Assembly: GCF_030296015.1 (NCBI RefSeq)
Contig: NZ_AP027368.1
Span: 3,100,001 to 3,164,000 of the forward strand
DNA from: Ferrimonas sp. YFM
GTDB lineage: Bacteria > Pseudomonadota > Gammaproteobacteria > Enterobacterales > Shewanellaceae
Reading direction: 5' to 3'
Length of the DNA: 64,000 nucleotides
Shown: positions 954-7,255 of the stretch, piece by piece
Layout of the letters: each line of letters begins with the position of its first letter
How positions within the stretch are numbered: position 1 is the stretch's first letter
The notes under the pieces: generated by a model
What the model was told of the DNA's origin: nothing
Seen by the model: only the letters and a program-made list of their open reading frames with translations
The model's database searches: none
Position numbers and translations under genes: made by a program

Positions 954-963
954 GGACACCCAT
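954..963 (-). repeat. REP-like motif, inverted copy upstream of RAYT
   Basis: GGACACCCAT here is the reverse complement of the ATGGGTGTCC motif repeated downstream of the transposase. It lies 62 bp before the transposase start. The transposase is thus bracketed by oppositely oriented copies, as is usual for REP-associated transposases. Confidence 0.6.
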
Positions 964-1024
964 CCTAACAACTGATGCCACACCAGCGTCTATCCTTAGT
1001 TTTCATTCTCATGGAGCGAGAACG

Positions 1025-2002
1025 ATGCCTAAGGCCAGGAAACAACAAATCAGCTTGGACGATACCCGCTACTATCACTGCGTCAGCCGCTGTGTTCGGC
1101 GTGCCTTCCTCTGTGGCCATGACCCCTACACCGGAAAAAGCTATGAACACCGTAGAGACTGGGTGCAGGAAAGACTGCTGTCGCTGACAAAGGTTTATGC
1201 CATCGAAGTCATCGCCTTTGCCGTCATGAGCAATCACACTCACACGGTGTTTTACGTCAATATTGAAAAGGCCAACAGCTGGAGTGATTTAGAGGTCATC
1301 GAGCGCTGGCACCTGCTATTCACTGGCAACGCCATGACTCGTCGCTATTTGATAGAGGAAGAACGTGATGAGATGGAGAGTTGGGAGCAGCACCAGGTGG
1401 AGCAACTGGTGACGCTATACCGCCAGCGATTGACTGACATCAGCTGGTTTATGCGGACTCTGAACGAATTCATCGCCCGTAAAGCCAACAAGGAAGACAA
1501 CTGCAGCGGTCGATTCTGGGAGGGCAGATTCAAGTCACAAGCGCTGTTGGATGAGCAGGCCCTGCTCTCCTGTATGACTTATGTCGACCTCAATCCCATC
1601 AGAGCCAATATGGCTGACACCCCAGAGCAGTCAGACCATACCTCTATCCAACTGCGCATACGGGCAGCATTAGCCGGCAAACAGCCATATAGACTCAAAG
1701 CGTTTGATGTTGAAGATATCGAGAACTGTACCCTGCCCTGCCACCTCAATGATTATCTTGAGTTGGTGGAGTTCACAGGCAGAGCCATTCGACAAGACAA
1801 AGCAGGACATATGGCCAAAGGCACTGCCGACTTGCTCACCAGGTTGAACATAGAACTCGACAACTGGATGGAGCTCACCCAAGGGTTCGAATACCAGTTC
1901 CACCACCTAGCAGGTCGAGAACACAGCATGCGCAACTGCCGCCAAGCTGATCAACTAAAGCGAATACGGGGCTCAACCAACGCCAAACGATTACTCGCCT
2001 AA
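1025..2002 (+). CDS. REP-associated tyrosine transposase (RAYT, Y1_Tnp/IS200-like)
   Basis: This 325-aa protein has the hallmarks of the large RAYT branch of the Y1 transposase family, which processes REP elements by single-strand cleavage. The HUH metal motif is seen as SNHTHTV with His71 and His73. The family block GRFWEGRFKSQALLDE (about 162-177) and the following TYVDLNPIRA (185-194) are both clear. In small RAYTs the nucleophilic Tyr sits in the helix before GRF; here that stretch reads LNEFIARKANKED with no Tyr, so either Tyr185 serves or the enzyme is altered. The gene is intact, with a weak gagaacg ribosome site. It is flanked by an inverted motif at 954 and an array of direct motifs from 2188. 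The function of the C-terminal 120 residues is unknown. Confidence 0.85.
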   Translation: MPKARKQQISLDDTRYYHCVSRCVRRAFLCGHDPYTGKSYEHRRDWVQERLLSLTKVYAIEVIAFAVMSNHTHTVFYVNIEKANSWSDLEVIERWHLLFTGNAMTRRYLIEEERDEMESWEQHQVEQLVTLYRQRLTDISWFMRTLNEFIARKANKEDNCSGRFWEGRFKSQALLDEQALLSCMTYVDLNPIRANMADTPEQSDHTSIQLRIRAALAGKQPYRLKAFDVEDIENCTLPCHLNDYLELVEFTGRAIRQDKAGHMAKGTADLLTRLNIELDNWMELTQGFEYQFHHLAGREHSMRNCRQADQLKRIRGSTNAKRLLA

Positions 2003-2200
2003 ACGTTAGCTATAAGCCCACATTCATGTCGACCACTGAGCGCTCGACGGCCTTACAATGCCTGTCGCACAGAAAACATAGCAAAGCCACATTTCCAGAC
2101 GACTTCACTACCAGACACCTCGCAAACCAAACCTAAAAACCTCGAACTTCAATCGGTCAATTCAAAGTGATTTTCCACTTTGCTTAACATGGGTGTCTTT

Positions 2201-2571
2201 GTATCCCTGCCTCCCGGATTGTAGACGGACCGCCCGCGCCCCTACTCAAAAAAAGGCCATACACACTGAATCAAAAATGCTCCTTGCTCATTGAAGCAGG
2301 AGCATTTTGGGCTTCATATAGCAGGCCCCCTCTTAGCATGGGTGTCCATGTAAGCATCATTAGCATGGGTGTCCATGTAAGTACTTGTATCCCTGCCTCC
2401 CGGATTGTAGACGGACCGCCCGCGCCCCTACTCAAAAAAAGGCCATACACACTGAATCAAAAATGCTCCTTGCTCATTGAAGCAGGAGCATTTTGGGCTT
2501 CAGATAGCAGGCCCCCTCTTAGCATGGGTGTCCATGTAAGCATCATTAGCATGGGTGTCCATGTAAGTAAG
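2201..2571. repeat. 186-bp tandem duplication
   Basis: The block starting GTATCCCTGCCTCCCGG at 2201 is repeated from 2387 at an offset of exactly 186 bp. It is nearly identical (one difference seen: catatagc versus cagatagc). Each unit carries a hairpin and two CATGGGTGTCCATG motifs. An apparent reading frame across it (2284-2682) only reflects the repeat and is not a gene. Confidence 0.85.
2274..2308. repeat. hairpin in the duplicated unit (second copy 2460-2494)
   Basis: AAAATGCTCC and GGAGCATTTT form the outer stem and TGCT/AGCA extends it with one bulged base. It looks like a bidirectional terminator with A and T flanks. It would end transcription from the RAYT on the + strand. Confidence 0.5.
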
Positions 2572-2699
2572 TACTTACCGAAGCAAAATGAACGCCCCAA
2601 TAGCATGGGTGTCTTTGTCTTTCCTCAGTATCTATTGCCAGGCCCTTTCGCTATCAGGAATGCAGCAAACCGCACCTGTTAACCACTAAATAGCTGATC

Positions 2700-3734
2700 C
2701 TAATTGTGCTCCACTTTCAACAGTCCATGGTCTCCACCGGGATAAGGTGATGCATTGTCCATGAAGTACCGGACTCGTTTCAGCAACTGCCACATGGCTT
2801 TGCACTGATGATTGCGGGTGACTGTCTCATGGAGCGCATGCCAGAGCTTTTCGATCTTGTTGACCCATGGTGAGTAAACCGGCTGAAACAGCAAAATGAA
2901 CTTCGGGTTTCTGGCCAACCAGCGCAGTGTTTTCTTGCTCTTGTGGATGATGTAATTGTCCACGATAAGCGTGATGGTTTTGGCCCTTCGATATTGGCGT
3001 TTTAGCCGTTGCAGCATCGATAGGAACAGGTTTGAGTCTTTGCTGGTGCTGGCGACATAGGACACTCGACCTGTTTTCGCATGCAGTGCGCCAGCCAGAT
3101 AGTGTTTAGCATTTTGCCCTGGCGTTGCCACCTTCTTCTGCTTACCTCGTGGCATCCAGTCTGACCCCAACTTGGGGTTCAAATGGATGTCCACTTCGTC
3201 CTCGTAGAACACCGGATGATCTGTACAGCATCTTTCCAGCGCCTGCTTTATACGGGCCAACTTGGCGTCCCTATCGGGGTCTCTGATATGCAGTGTTGGC
3301 GCTACTCTGCGCCAGACAATGCCCATCCTGGGCAACCAACGACGAATGGTAGACGCATGCACGTTTAAGCCCATAATCCGGTTAATCTCAATAGCCATCA
3401 GCTCTGTGCTCCAACGTGACCGCTGGTAACCGATATCTTGGGGAGAGATTTGAATCAACGCCTCTAAAACAACCTTGATTTGCTGGTATGGCTGTGTGGC
3501 AACCCGGCCCCGGTTCATCGACTCAAGGCCCTCAAGACCACACTGGGTATACCACTGAATCCAACGGTTGATAGAGGAACGACCAGCCGCCATCATCCGC
3601 GAGACTTCGGTGACGTTGTAGCCGTTAGCCAGGAGCAGGATGGCATTGAGCCTGCGACAGTGATCTCTGTCGTTGGTTTTATGCATTTTTTGGATGATAC
3701 GGCGTCGCTCTGCGCGGTCTGGAAGTGTTAGCAT
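2700..3734 (-). CDS. IS630-family transposase
   Basis: The 344-aa protein is a full-length Tc1/mariner-type DDE transposase. The first 110 residues form a two-part helix-turn-helix region (NVTEVSRMMAAGRSSINRWIQWY and a second winged helix ending TIRRWLPRMGI). The catalytic triad is visible as Asp in YEDEVDIHL, Asp in LIVDNYIIHKSK and Glu in PWVNKIEKLWHALH. The stop lies 9 bp inside the left inverted repeat. There is no clear ribosome site before the ATG at 3734, and a large hairpin ends 6 bases upstream of it. The frame is uninterrupted, so the element may still be active. Confidence 0.93.
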   Translation of the reverse strand: MLTLPDRAERRRIIQKMHKTNDRDHCRRLNAILLLANGYNVTEVSRMMAAGRSSINRWIQWYTQCGLEGLESMNRGRVATQPYQQIKVVLEALIQISPQDIGYQRSRWSTELMAIEINRIMGLNVHASTIRRWLPRMGIVWRRVAPTLHIRDPDRDAKLARIKQALERCCTDHPVFYEDEVDIHLNPKLGSDWMPRGKQKKVATPGQNAKHYLAGALHAKTGRVSYVASTSKDSNLFLSMLQRLKRQYRRAKTITLIVDNYIIHKSKKTLRWLARNPKFILLFQPVYSPWVNKIEKLWHALHETVTRNHQCKAMWQLLKRVRYFMDNASPYPGGDHGLLKVEHN

Positions 3735-3740
3735 TGCGGG

Positions 3741-3804
3741 ACTCGGTTCGTTTTGGTGGCTGTTTGGTTTGGCGATTGATCAGATCGCCAAAACGCAACC
3801 GAGT
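3741..3804 (-). promoter_or_regulatory. overlapping alternative hairpins in the IS630 transposase leader
   Basis: ACTCGGTTcGTTTTGG (3741-3756) pairs with CCAAAACGcAACCGAGT (3788-3804). A second hairpin, TTTGGCGAT (3768-3776) with ATCGCCAAA (3784-3792), shares bases with the right arm of the first, so the two exclude one another. The outer stem ends six bases before the transposase ATG and could hide its ribosome site. Control of transposase translation is an inference. Confidence 0.5.
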
Positions 3805-3872
3805 TCCCTTCCTACTCTACATCCCAGTGATCTACATTTCGGAACAGTTATTTAGATTCAGCTAGGCCAACC

Positions 3873-3906
3873 GAAGCAAAATGAACGCCCCGGTAGCATG
3901 GGTGTC
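3873..3906 (+). repeat. second copy of a 34-bp block flanking IS630
   Basis: GAAGCAAAATGAACGCCCC followed by two variable bases and TAGCATGGGTGTC occurs here and at 2580-2613, on the two sides of the IS. The variable pair is AA at the left copy and GG here. The IS therefore sits inside the REP-like array. Confidence 0.7.
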
Positions 3907-3945
3907 TTGTATCTATTGTTGTATCTACCTTTTGTATCTACCTGT

Positions 3946-4764
3946 CTATGTAACTTCCGACCTTTCGTTTATCTTTTTTTTCATATGTTTTATCTGATTG
4001 AATGCATCTCCAGTCATATAAATGGTGATATTATTCTCTTCTATCTCTGTTAGGGGACGCCAGAACCTTCTGTCATTGGATACCAACTCTAAAACGATTT
4101 CATTGTCTACAGTAAAAGCAACTCGTTCAACTATTTTCGCAGGTTCTTCTTCACATTCATTCTCTCCATACCAACGAATAGACGTCATAATGCTATGATA
4201 GACATTGTATATGAAAGACTTGCACATCATTAATATAAGTACAAAAAAGGCCTGCAATAAAGAAAGAGTAAGGCATAGATAAAGCTTGTAAGCAGATTCT
4301 CCGAAGATAACAATTGTTGATGTCTTTTCAGGTATCTCCGTTTTAAGAAACAATGAATACAAGTAAGTAATCATAACAATCGATATTATATCAACAACAA
4401 CCTTGATGAAAACACAATGACTGCTCTTTAAATGGCTAATTTCATAATTTTCATCTTGAAACTTTGACATTGAATATTGAAATTCTTTATCTGACAAAGT
4501 GGAGTATATAGAATAACCTGCGAGAATGAAGCCCACAATGGAAACAGACCATCCAATTATATTGCCTGAAACTTCTTGGATTTCACTGGATATATACGAA
4601 ACGCTGCCATTTGAATTTAGGTTAAACCATACCATCAACATGAAAGAACAAGCAAATGCGACTTTTGTATCCGTGCTCGTCTTTATCACCCTTAAAAGTT
4701 TATAAAGCTTCCAAAAGTTACTCTCAGATGTCAATTCATACAGTTCATCATTTTGACTGTTCAT
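3946..4764 (-). CDS. four-TM membrane protein of the island cassette
   Basis: I do not recognise the family. The 272-aa protein has about four hydrophobic segments (near 35-49, 68-88, 117-140 and 160-188). A polar C-terminal domain of about 80 residues follows (EEEPAKIVERVAFTVDNEIVLELVSNDRRFWRPLTEI). It starts 8 bp after the stop of the upstream gene, with AGGGATAGTC before the ATG, so the two are co-transcribed. AT-rich codon use marks it as acquired. The pairing of a soluble protein with a four-TM partner resembles RexA/RexB, where RexB is a four-TM depolarising protein; Kiwa also has a four-TM subunit. These are analogies of layout, not sequence matches. The C-terminal cytosolic domain is larger than in RexB. 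Confidence 0.75.
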   Translation of the reverse strand: MNSQNDELYELTSESNFWKLYKLLRVIKTSTDTKVAFACSFMLMVWFNLNSNGSVSYISSEIQEVSGNIIGWSVSIVGFILAGYSIYSTLSDKEFQYSMSKFQDENYEISHLKSSHCVFIKVVVDIISIVMITYLYSLFLKTEIPEKTSTIVIFGESAYKLYLCLTLSLLQAFFVLILMMCKSFIYNVYHSIMTSIRWYGENECEEEPAKIVERVAFTVDNEIVLELVSNDRRFWRPLTEIEENNITIYMTGDAFNQIKHMKKKINERSEVT

Positions 4765-4772
4765 GACTATCC

Positions 4773-5792
4773 CTAATTTATCATTTCTCTTATATAATTA
4801 AGTTTATCTCTGACACTTTTTAAATTTGCAATCCTTGGCGCCCTAACAACGCCTCCTTTAATTAATTCCAAGAAAGACTCGTAAGTTTGCTTTACAAGCA
4901 CTCTTGGAGAGTCATTTATTTCACTAATTGCTCTTGTCAGTTTAAATTCCTCATGCGTACCGGTCAGCTTGTCATTATTTATATCTCTCCCTGACATTCT
5001 GATCAATATATTACCATCATTAACGGCCTCTTTAGAAAGGTCTGCAACTTCATCATGAGGTAAAGTCTTCTTGCTTTTTGAAAACTCAACTTTAGATTTT
5101 GGGTGCCCAAATTTTTTATTTTCTTTTCTCCATGACTTAAAGAAATCATTACAGTCATATTCACTGTTTGGCATCACCAACTTCAAAGTTAATTTGTCTA
5201 TAGATTTCATCCCCTTGATGAATTCATCAATATCAGCATCAGACGACAATGGAATAACCTCTATATCTGGCCTTGGATAAGACGCCTCTAAATCGCGTTT
5301 TTTAGTCACCTTATAATTACCACCCCTTTCTAGTCTCAGGCTCCTCTGGCGATGAAATTCATCATCTATATAACTCTTTATTTCATCATTTATGAACCTT
5401 TCAATAGTCGCTTTAAAGTTATCCATTGTGGGTGCATCTTTTTGTTCCTTTATGAAAAATATGCGATGCTCTTTCAAGGACAACATAAATATTGATGACG
5501 GCGAATTCTGGATGCTAAGACTATCATCAATCAACTCACTACCTTTAAGAACCTGCTCTCTTTCTAAGATTGTGTCTTTGACTATTCTGCCATATATAAA
5601 TGGTAACTTTTCACCATTTATATCAACCTCAATCAGCTGAACTCCATTAAATAACCACCTAGAATCACCATGATTTCTAACATGATTATTCATGAACGCC
5701 GGGTGAACAAACTGTAAATATCTATCTAGCAACTTTAGCTCGCCAAAGTGACAAACAAAGTTCCAGAACTCAACGTTATAATTTTTTTTCAT
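4773..5792 (-). CDS. unrecognised soluble protein of the island cassette, RexA-like in layout
   Basis: The 339-aa protein has no signal peptide or membrane segment. It is rich in charged residues and in beta-type stretches. One block, SPSSIFMLSLKEHRIFFIKEQ then DAPTMDNFKATIERFI (about 97-134), resembles the central block of lambda RexA by eye. A later KLTLKLVMPNSEYDCNDFF (200-218) parallels the RexA stretch before its C-terminal domain. This is a weak similarity from memory and needs profile comparison. The DUF4747 and KwaB-type families are other candidates. It is the middle gene of three leftward genes: 146 bp after the ATPase and 8 bp before the membrane protein. A sensor role is an inference from the Rex analogy. 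Confidence 0.75.
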   Translation of the reverse strand: MKKNYNVEFWNFVCHFGELKLLDRYLQFVHPAFMNNHVRNHGDSRWLFNGVQLIEVDINGEKLPFIYGRIVKDTILEREQVLKGSELIDDSLSIQNSPSSIFMLSLKEHRIFFIKEQKDAPTMDNFKATIERFINDEIKSYIDDEFHRQRSLRLERGGNYKVTKKRDLEASYPRPDIEVIPLSSDADIDEFIKGMKSIDKLTLKLVMPNSEYDCNDFFKSWRKENKKFGHPKSKVEFSKSKKTLPHDEVADLSKEAVNDGNILIRMSGRDINNDKLTGTHEEFKLTRAISEINDSPRVLVKQTYESFLELIKGGVVRAPRIANLKSVRDKLNYIREMIN

Positions 5793-5938
5793 TTTACTAT
5801 CTGCAACAAGTTAGTTATTTAGAAACAAATCCCATCAAGAGCTTCACCTTGTAAAGGATAAAAGCACTTCTTCATGGCAATACAAACACGATAAAAAACC
5901 TTAATTAAACTAATAGGGTGGGATATGGATAGTTCACC

Positions 5939-7255
5939 TTAACATTCTATACAATCAACTGGATTAACTATGTCATCTGACGCATCATCCAAATTGGCAT
6001 ATTTCAAATAAAAGTAAAATGTAGAATCAATTACTTTCAGCATTCTAGTGTTAGAGTCATATGCCAAAACAGGAGGGTTAATTCCCTTTGAACTCTGGAG
6101 CTCACCTAATTTTTTCAAAGCAGAAGTTAACTGAGCTCCCTTTAAATCGCCTGATCGATGATGTATCACCCGAATTTTTTGCATCAAAGTATCTTTGCTG
6201 ACCCCGCCATTAATACCTTCAAAACCTAAACCAAGTAATGCAATGACAATATAATAAGGCATAAAAAATGGTAAAGGTGTTTCGCTTTGTATCTTTGAAC
6301 CTGTTCCCGCGGCAATAGCCTCCAAGTTTCTTAGATGACGACCAGAATAATACTCCGTTTTATCAGATATAGCTAACTCAACACAATGTAAATCATCAAT
6401 TACGGTTAATCCATGCTGCTTTTCAGTTACTCCTGAAAAACGAACAGTTCCTTTTAATAGCTCTTGGTAAACACCCACACTATTAAATGATGAATCAATA
6501 CATTTTTGGACGACACGTTCGGAAATAGAAACGTTAAGCTCCGGCTCACCTTTTTTTGCAATTGCAACAAAATCATCTTTCGACCATGGCTCTACAGGAA
6601 CTTCAACTATTCTGTCCTGTAAATCTCCATTAAATTGTGACATACGATTGGCTTCTTTCCAAACACCTAGTATGACAATTTTTACTTTTAGATCTTGAAA
6701 CGCCCTCAAATCATAAGCGAATTGTCGTTGCATATTCTCATTCAAATAATGAAAATTTTCTAGAATAACTACCTTTTTACAGCCAGCCCTGTGAATTAAA
6801 GAGGCGACATCGTTAGGCAAAGCAAGATTGAACTCAATTTCTTCATATTCATCGGTCCTACTTCTCTGCGATTTTTCAGAAATATCCGATGAAACCCCGG
6901 CCTTACCAAACATCGCAATGGTTGCTTGAATCTGTGCTTTTATACCAGTCCTTGTTTCTCTTCCCGTCCCCTCTGTAAATGAAGTTCTTACAGATACTCC
7001 AGCCTCTCTAAGCATTGACTTATATATGTCTTCCATCGTAAACTTTGGAGATAAGCTCACAACTATATTTTCTTCATACTTTACATATTTAGAAACTAAA
7101 GCTGTCTTTCCTTGTTTAGATGCACCATAGACTACAACTTGCTTATCGGTTCTAAGTGCATCAAGCAACTTAGCATCTACATGCTCTCTTTCAATATAAG
7201 ATTTTATGTGTTTACCACTAACACCAAAAACATCTTCCAAATGGGTCAACTCCAA
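5939..7255 (-). CDS. P-loop ATPase (AAA/STAND-like) of the island cassette
   Basis: The 438-aa protein has a Walker A motif at 44-51 (GASKQGKT) and a Walker B-like KKVVILENFHY at 160-170. A sensor-1-like VKIVILGVWKEANRM follows at 191-205. The later half is helical, in the manner of AAA_22/STAND ATPases. No ATG lies before the P-loop, so it starts at TTG. The frame opens with TTG at 7255, but TTG at 7249 has GGGAG six bases upstream and is the better choice. It is the first gene of the leftward cassette. ATPases of this kind occur both in defence systems and as chaperone-like loaders; the substrate is unknown. AT-rich composition matches its two partners. Confidence 0.8.
   Translation of the reverse strand: MELTHLEDVFGVSGKHIKSYIEREHVDAKLLDALRTDKQVVVYGASKQGKTALVSKYVKYEENIVVSLSPKFTMEDIYKSMLREAGVSVRTSFTEGTGRETRTGIKAQIQATIAMFGKAGVSSDISEKSQRSRTDEYEEIEFNLALPNDVASLIHRAGCKKVVILENFHYLNENMQRQFAYDLRAFQDLKVKIVILGVWKEANRMSQFNGDLQDRIVEVPVEPWSKDDFVAIAKKGEPELNVSISERVVQKCIDSSFNSVGVYQELLKGTVRFSGVTEKQHGLTVIDDLHCVELAISDKTEYYSGRHLRNLEAIAAGTGSKIQSETPLPFFMPYYIVIALLGLGFEGINGGVSKDTLMQKIRVIHHRSGDLKGAQLTSALKKLGELQSSKGINPPVLAYDSNTRMLKVIDSTFYFYLKYANLDDASDDIVNPVDCIEC

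Follow-up and report, generated by a model that had tools for sequence, protein, structure and literature searches.

A two-gene locus of Ferrimonas sp. YFM with the gene plan and predicted fold of a Rex phage-exclusion system

A conserved pair of genes and an independent ATPase gene

We analysed a 64,000-nucleotide stretch of the Ferrimonas sp. YFM genome (contig NZ_AP027368.1, positions 3,100,001 to 3,164,000; hereafter the window). The host genome is a single contig of 4.66 Mb. Three leftward open reading frames (ORFs) lie at 3946-7255 of the window. An earlier interpretation made from the letters alone (the sequence-only reading) had joined them into one AT-rich cassette of an ATPase, an unrecognised soluble protein and a protein with four transmembrane (TM) segments. 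The three ORFs are listed below, with protein lengths in amino acids (aa).

3946..4764, minus strand: four-TM inner-membrane protein gene, 272 aa; effector candidate that resembles RexB in position and topology (ORF, homologues, model)
4773..5792, minus strand: RexA-like soluble protein gene, 339 aa; proposed infection sensor (ORF; predicted RexA/RdgC fold)
5939..7255, minus strand: PDC-S59-type P-loop ATPase gene, 438 aa, TTG start; neighbour judged outside the pair (PADLOC)

The ORFs of 272, 339 and 438 aa were found where the sequence-only reading had put them, with the predicted gap of 8 bp between the 339-aa gene and the four-TM gene; 146 bp separate the ATPase gene from the pair. The reading was also correct that base composition here is unlike that of the chromosome after 7.6 kb. 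G+C content is 35.2% across 3946-7255 vs 60.2% across 7663-64000.

A joint test found both the 339-aa gene and the four-TM gene at 35 of 35 loci; the profiles used were built partly from those same loci, and the loci are not independent (L042-L044 and L047 look similar, as do L050-L052, and L056 resembles L057; L041, L053 and L055 are contigs of L017, L015 and L016). At 34 of the 35 loci the two genes were adjacent, on one strand and in the same order, the four-TM gene directly downstream of the soluble gene. The lone exception, L013 (a Nitrosomonas metagenome-assembled genome, 8001-9652), holds a decayed pair in which both genes are broken by stops. The flanking DNA covered is short at some loci (4 kb at L003, 4.5 kb at L011). 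The pair was recovered whichever of the two genes served as bait. The 339-aa bait gave 10 loci in genome contigs, 3 in viral contigs, 13 records in a phage collection (all Klebsiella; one examined), 2 plasmid records (the Salinivibrio one examined), 2 further genomes among 398 of the phylum, and 2 further genomes among 97 relatives, one of them the F. futtsuensis-like G009. The four-TM bait gave 20 viral loci. When tblastn was run with the window's own two proteins, both were found in the same loci. The nearest named relatives are those of Ferrimonas futtsuensis, with 81% identity for the 339-aa protein and 67% for the four-TM protein.

In the translated ATPase, a manual count puts the Walker A motif GASKQGKT at 44-51, in agreement with the sequence-only reading. 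The protein matched the PADLOC family PDC-S59 over nearly its full length (E-value 1.5e-73; protein 4-430, profile 3-413 of 428); a match to Pfam AAA_22 (1.3e-5) was below the cut-off. PDC-S59 is a single-gene candidate in PADLOC for which we found no tested function. A literature search by titles and opening abstract lines, with most subscription journals outside it, gave no paper carrying the name PDC-S59. No tblastn match to the window ATPase was obtained in any other locus of the pair. PDC-S59 was present in 4 of 321 genomes of the class, own genome included, and in the other three the pair was absent within 9-9.5 kb around the ATPase. In F. futtsuensis the corresponding chromosomal site also carries the pair, with an adjoining three-gene operon 96-99% identical and a RAYT gene (89%) on the other side. 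The gene before the pair there encodes a 497-aa AAA_15/AAA_21 ATPase, not PDC-S59; its best PADLOC match was ATPase-Toprim_I-B (E 2.1e-37). The window ATPase is a separate gene, independent of the pair, and the unit is two genes (3946-5792), not three. Co-occurrence of all three genes elsewhere, by which the sequence-only reading had proposed that its cassette be judged, was not seen; what kept together was the 339-aa gene and the four-TM gene.

Predicted fold of the two proteins and comparison with Rex sequences

Pfam, NCBIfam and PADLOC contained no family for the pair, and PDB sequence searches gave nothing below E 0.06. By sequence, the 339-aa protein is unrecognised, as had been noted before; its predicted fold, however, is recognisable. 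Foldseek matched the model to lambda RexA with E 3.7e-6, the sole entry below 0.001, and the VIA structural list was headed by RexA, RdgC, Iml3 and CENP-N. Adams et al. reported that RexA, RdgC, Iml3 and Chl4 have this fold in common. The predicted structure thus supplies the soluble RexA/RdgC-fold component of a Rex-type architecture. A weak match of the 339-aa protein was to phrog_10040 (E 5.6e-7), a family of phage proteins whose function is unknown; phrog_10040 matches the control genome of Haloferax volcanii as well. A PB1 hit on the 339-aa protein was below the Pfam cut-off and was rejected.

The AlphaFold model of the four-TM protein (predicted local distance difference test score, pLDDT, 78.7) showed four long helices. 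A hydropathy scan gave four peaks in the F. futtsuensis orthologue and three in the window protein; across the 35 loci the simple TM scan ranged from 2 to 7 peaks, with 4 the usual number. The earlier assignment of four TM segments agrees with the model and the orthologue but not with the simple scan of the window protein. The cytosolic tail claimed for this protein is real, though restricted: the C-terminal 70-80 residues (window 4150-3946) were present in 2 of 12 relatives, namely the window protein and that of F. futtsuensis. The tail is predicted, with moderate confidence, to comprise a small part rich in strands and one helix, and this extra cytosolic domain, which the membrane protein would have gained in Ferrimonas, might provide a second input for control. 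In the PDB the four-TM model matched generic helical bundles, and these hits were discarded. In a BFVD search with the same model none passed E 0.001; a 165-aa Sbash protein was a weak match at rank 8 (E 0.38), and two other rows had a slightly higher probability. Sbash gp31 is 165 aa. On viral contigs L035-L039 we observed distant RexA relatives of ~310 aa, whose four-TM neighbours have an SMLGFL-like helix resembling the window's four-TM family.

Several results weigh against a Rex assignment. Foldseek TM-scores to RexA were low (0.29-0.34) and the VIA root-mean-square deviation was 15; domain packing therefore differs from that of RexA. The Pfam RexA family (PF15969) matched neither the window protein nor other members of its family. 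Lambda RexA and the L035 protein matched PF15969, while CarolAnn gp44 and Butters gp30 failed too. When the 339-aa profile was aligned by hhalign with 17 RexA sequences, 7 of 40 column shuffles scored at least as high as the real columns; the corresponding counts were 6 of 40 for six distant RexA sequences and 9 of 40 for actinophage RexA. The four-TM profile counts on both sides: it gave a weak signal to lambda-type RexB, with one helix aligned (reached by 0/40 shuffles twice and by 1/40 in another run), and none to actinophage RexB (6/40). In addition, unlike lambda Rex, the window's own pair is not in a prophage; it lies on the bacterial chromosome next to a conserved carbohydrate operon, with no recognisable prophage around it. 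A segment of RexA (LRAKDEAGDIL) and the family pattern LxGxDxxGDxL look alike by eye and were aligned in one C-terminal run; the score was unremarkable and the resemblance was not used.

The same shuffle test was applied to published Rex systems as a yardstick. Lambda-type and actinophage RexA profiles, published as one kind, gave a score reached by 2 of 40 shuffles, and the RexB sets compared with each other gave scores reached by 11/40 and 19/40. Because the test fails even between published Rex systems, the missing sequence link neither excludes the family from Rex nor makes it a member. The pair has the plan and the fold of a Rex system; we do not claim membership in the RexA/RexB sequence families.

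Placement of the pair and its interpretation as a Rex-type system

Relatives of the pair were found in prophages and phages. Klebsiella phage 4LV2017 (Peduoviridae, P2-like) carries, in order, a CI repressor, a RexA-like protein, a four-TM protein and an integrase; the four-TM ORF is unannotated there. A P2-like prophage of E. coli 20A24 (L108 6107-9849) has CI, two genes each annotated 'hypothetical protein' and an integrase, the two genes being a copy of the pair. Matches were present in 13 of 5426 E. coli genomes at ~72% DNA identity, of which 20A24 was examined. At L045 and L048, Phage_CI_repr proteins precede the pair. An adjoining immunity repressor is thus found for the relatives L019, L045, L048 and L108, and not for the window copy.

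Other relatives have defence genes nearby. A restriction-modification, Gabija or defence-type ATPase gene was near the pair at 6 of 13 other genomic loci (L004, L007, L009, L011, L012 and L097), a count that comes from neighbours selected by eye and has no background rate to set it against, L005, L010, L013 and L098 being outside the scan. The pair is adjoined by type I restriction subunits at L007 and L012, a type III restriction subunit at L009, a C5 DNA methylase at L011, and Gabija with two methylases at L097. A reverse transcriptase was near the pair at L006. The scanned neighbour at L099 had no PADLOC family match, and at L008 only an integrase-like neighbour was scanned, which was below the Pfam cut-off. 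The family is rare. The first profile found it in 1 of 369 genomes of the class, the own genome, and a wider profile in 3 of 398 genomes of the phylum, own genome included. By genus, the named genomes among the 10 genome-contig loci include Gammaproteobacteria, Betaproteobacteria and Verrucomicrobiota.

The closest parallel in plan is lambda RexA/RexB (PF15969; structure 8TWQ). The predicted fold of the soluble protein is alike, a four-TM gene immediately follows the soluble gene in both, and the lambda order cI-rexA-rexB recurs in the prophage relatives of the pair. Lambda RexA and the 339-aa protein each have a calculated isoelectric point of 8.6. The two systems differ in that the soluble proteins have no significant sequence similarity and the proteins of the pair are longer (339 and 272 aa, vs 279 and 144 aa in lambda). 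E. coli RdgC, a second structural relative, is a stand-alone recombination protein (Adams et al.), whereas the window protein is rare and paired with a membrane gene.

Only five Rex-like systems are described so far according to PMC12894663. As described there, RexABpp of P. putida (PP_5643/PP_5644) resembles the pair in having a RexA-like fold, a four-TM partner and the RexA gene first. Both of its genes are needed for defence, its RexA binds DNA, and overexpression of RexA makes RexB halt growth and injure the membrane, which is visible in a subpopulation only. RexABpp RexA was recognised by HHpred (98%), whereas our profile test of the 339-aa protein does not find RexA. The actinophage systems Sbash gp30/31, CarolAnn gp44/43, Butters gp30/31 and Toast gp42/41 also combine a soluble and a membrane protein, and in CarolAnn and Toast the genes come after the repressor; they gave no profile signal to either gene of the pair. 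Activation of a channel-like protein is proposed for Sbash and CarolAnn in PMC6426596 and PMC6426606, and Butters works the opposite way round, according to PMC7542560.

The pair is probably a Rex-type phage-exclusion (abortive infection) system, of a sequence lineage unnamed in the libraries searched. The plan of a sensor with a membrane effector, offered by the sequence-only reading as a route to abortive infection, fits the pair (RexA/RdgC fold, four-TM partner, placement in defence islands and in prophage immunity regions) and does not extend to the ATPase. By analogy with the studied Rex systems, the RexA/RdgC-fold protein would detect infection; the probable trigger is its binding to phage DNA or to DNA-protein intermediates, in line with the proposal for lambda RexA. 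The protein would then activate the four-helix inner-membrane protein, and the activated protein would make the membrane leaky or depolarised, stop growth and abort the infection. Activation of the membrane protein by the RexA-like protein is the most likely scheme for the pair. Computation directly supports the ORFs, the kept gene order, the RexA-like predicted fold, the positions near CI, restriction and Gabija genes and the separateness of the ATPase; DNA sensing, activation, membrane damage and phage exclusion are carried over from the studied Rex systems. With somewhat less assurance, we favour the view that these genes form an undescribed Rex-type family, with a sequence distance from lambda Rex equal to that of actinophage Rex, distributed in P2-like and other prophages (some of them in E. 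coli) and in chromosomal defence islands of Proteobacteria and Verrucomicrobiota. The literature search described above gave no description of this gene family.

Two alternatives keep the pair together and assign it another logic. In Butters gp30/gp31, which has the same two-gene plan, the behaviour summarised in PMC12894663 is inverted; if the pair worked likewise, the RexA-like protein would be the antiviral effector and the four-TM protein would only hold it inactive at the membrane. The same paper describes RexABpp, CarolAnn and Sbash, besides lambda's own system, as acting through the membrane protein, and we consider the inverted arrangement unlikely. It is a shade less likely still that the pair is not primarily for defence and is left over from a prophage immunity region, the RexA-like protein tuning the repressor switch as proposed for lambda RexA. 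In P2-like phages and prophages the relatives immediately follow CI, which suits such a role, and Adams et al. discussed a part for RexA in the CI-Cro switch. However, no CI gene lies beside the pair in the window or at most genomic loci examined, several loci adjoin restriction genes, and the four-TM gene is always kept.

The remaining alternatives change the parts or the family. A three-gene system, with the PDC-S59 ATPase as sensor, the 339-aa protein as adaptor and the four-TM protein as effector, has in its favour that the three genes, all AT-rich, share one strand within 3.3 kb. An AAA-type ATPase precedes the pair in both Ferrimonas, which lends some weight to a looser partnership with an exchangeable ATPase. 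The three-gene system itself is improbable, given that the window ATPase has no tblastn match at the other loci of the pair, that three other genomes have PDC-S59 with no pair in the 9-9.5 kb around it, and that a different ATPase occupies the same site in F. futtsuensis. Kiwa also joins a four-TM protein, KwaA, to a soluble one, KwaB, of sizes similar to those of the pair, and L034 contains an example kwa pair. In L034, kwaB comes after a small membrane gene, whereas in the pair the soluble gene is first; the KwaB family PF16162 had 0 matches in the genome and was not among the matches listed for the 339-aa family members. A Kiwa relationship is therefore very improbable. We give least credence of all to a Cap4-like nuclease effector. 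This possibility comes from the UniRef label 'CD-NTase associated protein 4-like DNA...' on the Salinivibrio protein P0003; hmmscan of P0003 to E 10 gave PB1 alone (0.011), and the structural matches of the 339-aa model are not led by any nuclease.

How lambda Rex senses infection has been an open question for ~70 years. If the Rex-type interpretation holds, a further widespread lineage with the Rex plan would provide independent material on which residues of the soluble protein are kept and on what the membrane protein needs. The relatives in E. coli, annotated as hypothetical proteins in the region examined, make testing in a laboratory host possible. Since the profile test cannot link even the published Rex systems with one another, defence finders that rely on sequence probably miss Rex systems. 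If the pair is indeed a Rex-type family spread over prophages and defence islands, Rex would be a general bacterial immune module that such finders overlook.

The variable slot in Ferrimonas and its flanks

Bounded by the amylase/HAD operon and the RAYT gene, the slot holds different defence-type genes in each of three Ferrimonas genomes (window 3946-7255; L004 6408-9838; L081 1660-2340): PDC-S59 with the pair, the AAA_15/21 ATPase with the pair, and a lone DNA methylase. The methylase gene, in the third genome (G012), is AT-rich (PF01555, E 1.6e-35) and lies before the RAYT gene and the same Oxidored_FMN gene. An AT-rich insert was present in 3 of the 11 Ferrimonas genomes with a full-length amylase-like gene. 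In the other 8, every 1-kb bin of the 12 kb downstream had at least 46% G+C; the downstream genes of those eight also differ, and these are not strict empty sites. In our reading, the site is a small defence slot with variable content, and this would account for the three AT-rich genes lying together.

Promoter and terminator scans gave fewer sites than shuffled sequences and so do not show the limits of an operon. Rfam and tRNA scans of the window gave nothing. The three ORFs are flanked on one side by an IS630 transposase gene and a RAYT-like gene, in the following region.

1-981, extending left beyond the window (L090 9969-11000): AT-rich gene (38% G+C) for a 343-aa protein, beyond RAYT
1025-2002: RAYT-like gene (NCBIfam 41.7 bits, below the cut-off of 80)
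2188-2559: 186-bp unit duplicated in tandem, 97%, in the repeat region next to RAYT
2577-2615 and 3870-3908: repeat pair, 39 bp, 95% alike, flanking the IS630 transposase gene
2700-3734: IS630 transposase gene (NCBIfam E 5.2e-73)

The 343-aa gene had no Pfam match and no PADLOC match. In F. futtsuensis, no ORF like the IS630 transposase was listed between the pair and RAYT. Of the mobile neighbours named in the sequence-only reading, the IS630 element is clear, the RAYT remains below its family threshold, and among the repeats the motif TAGCATGGGTGTC had 8 matches in the window, every one within 955-3906, against 0.07 expected.

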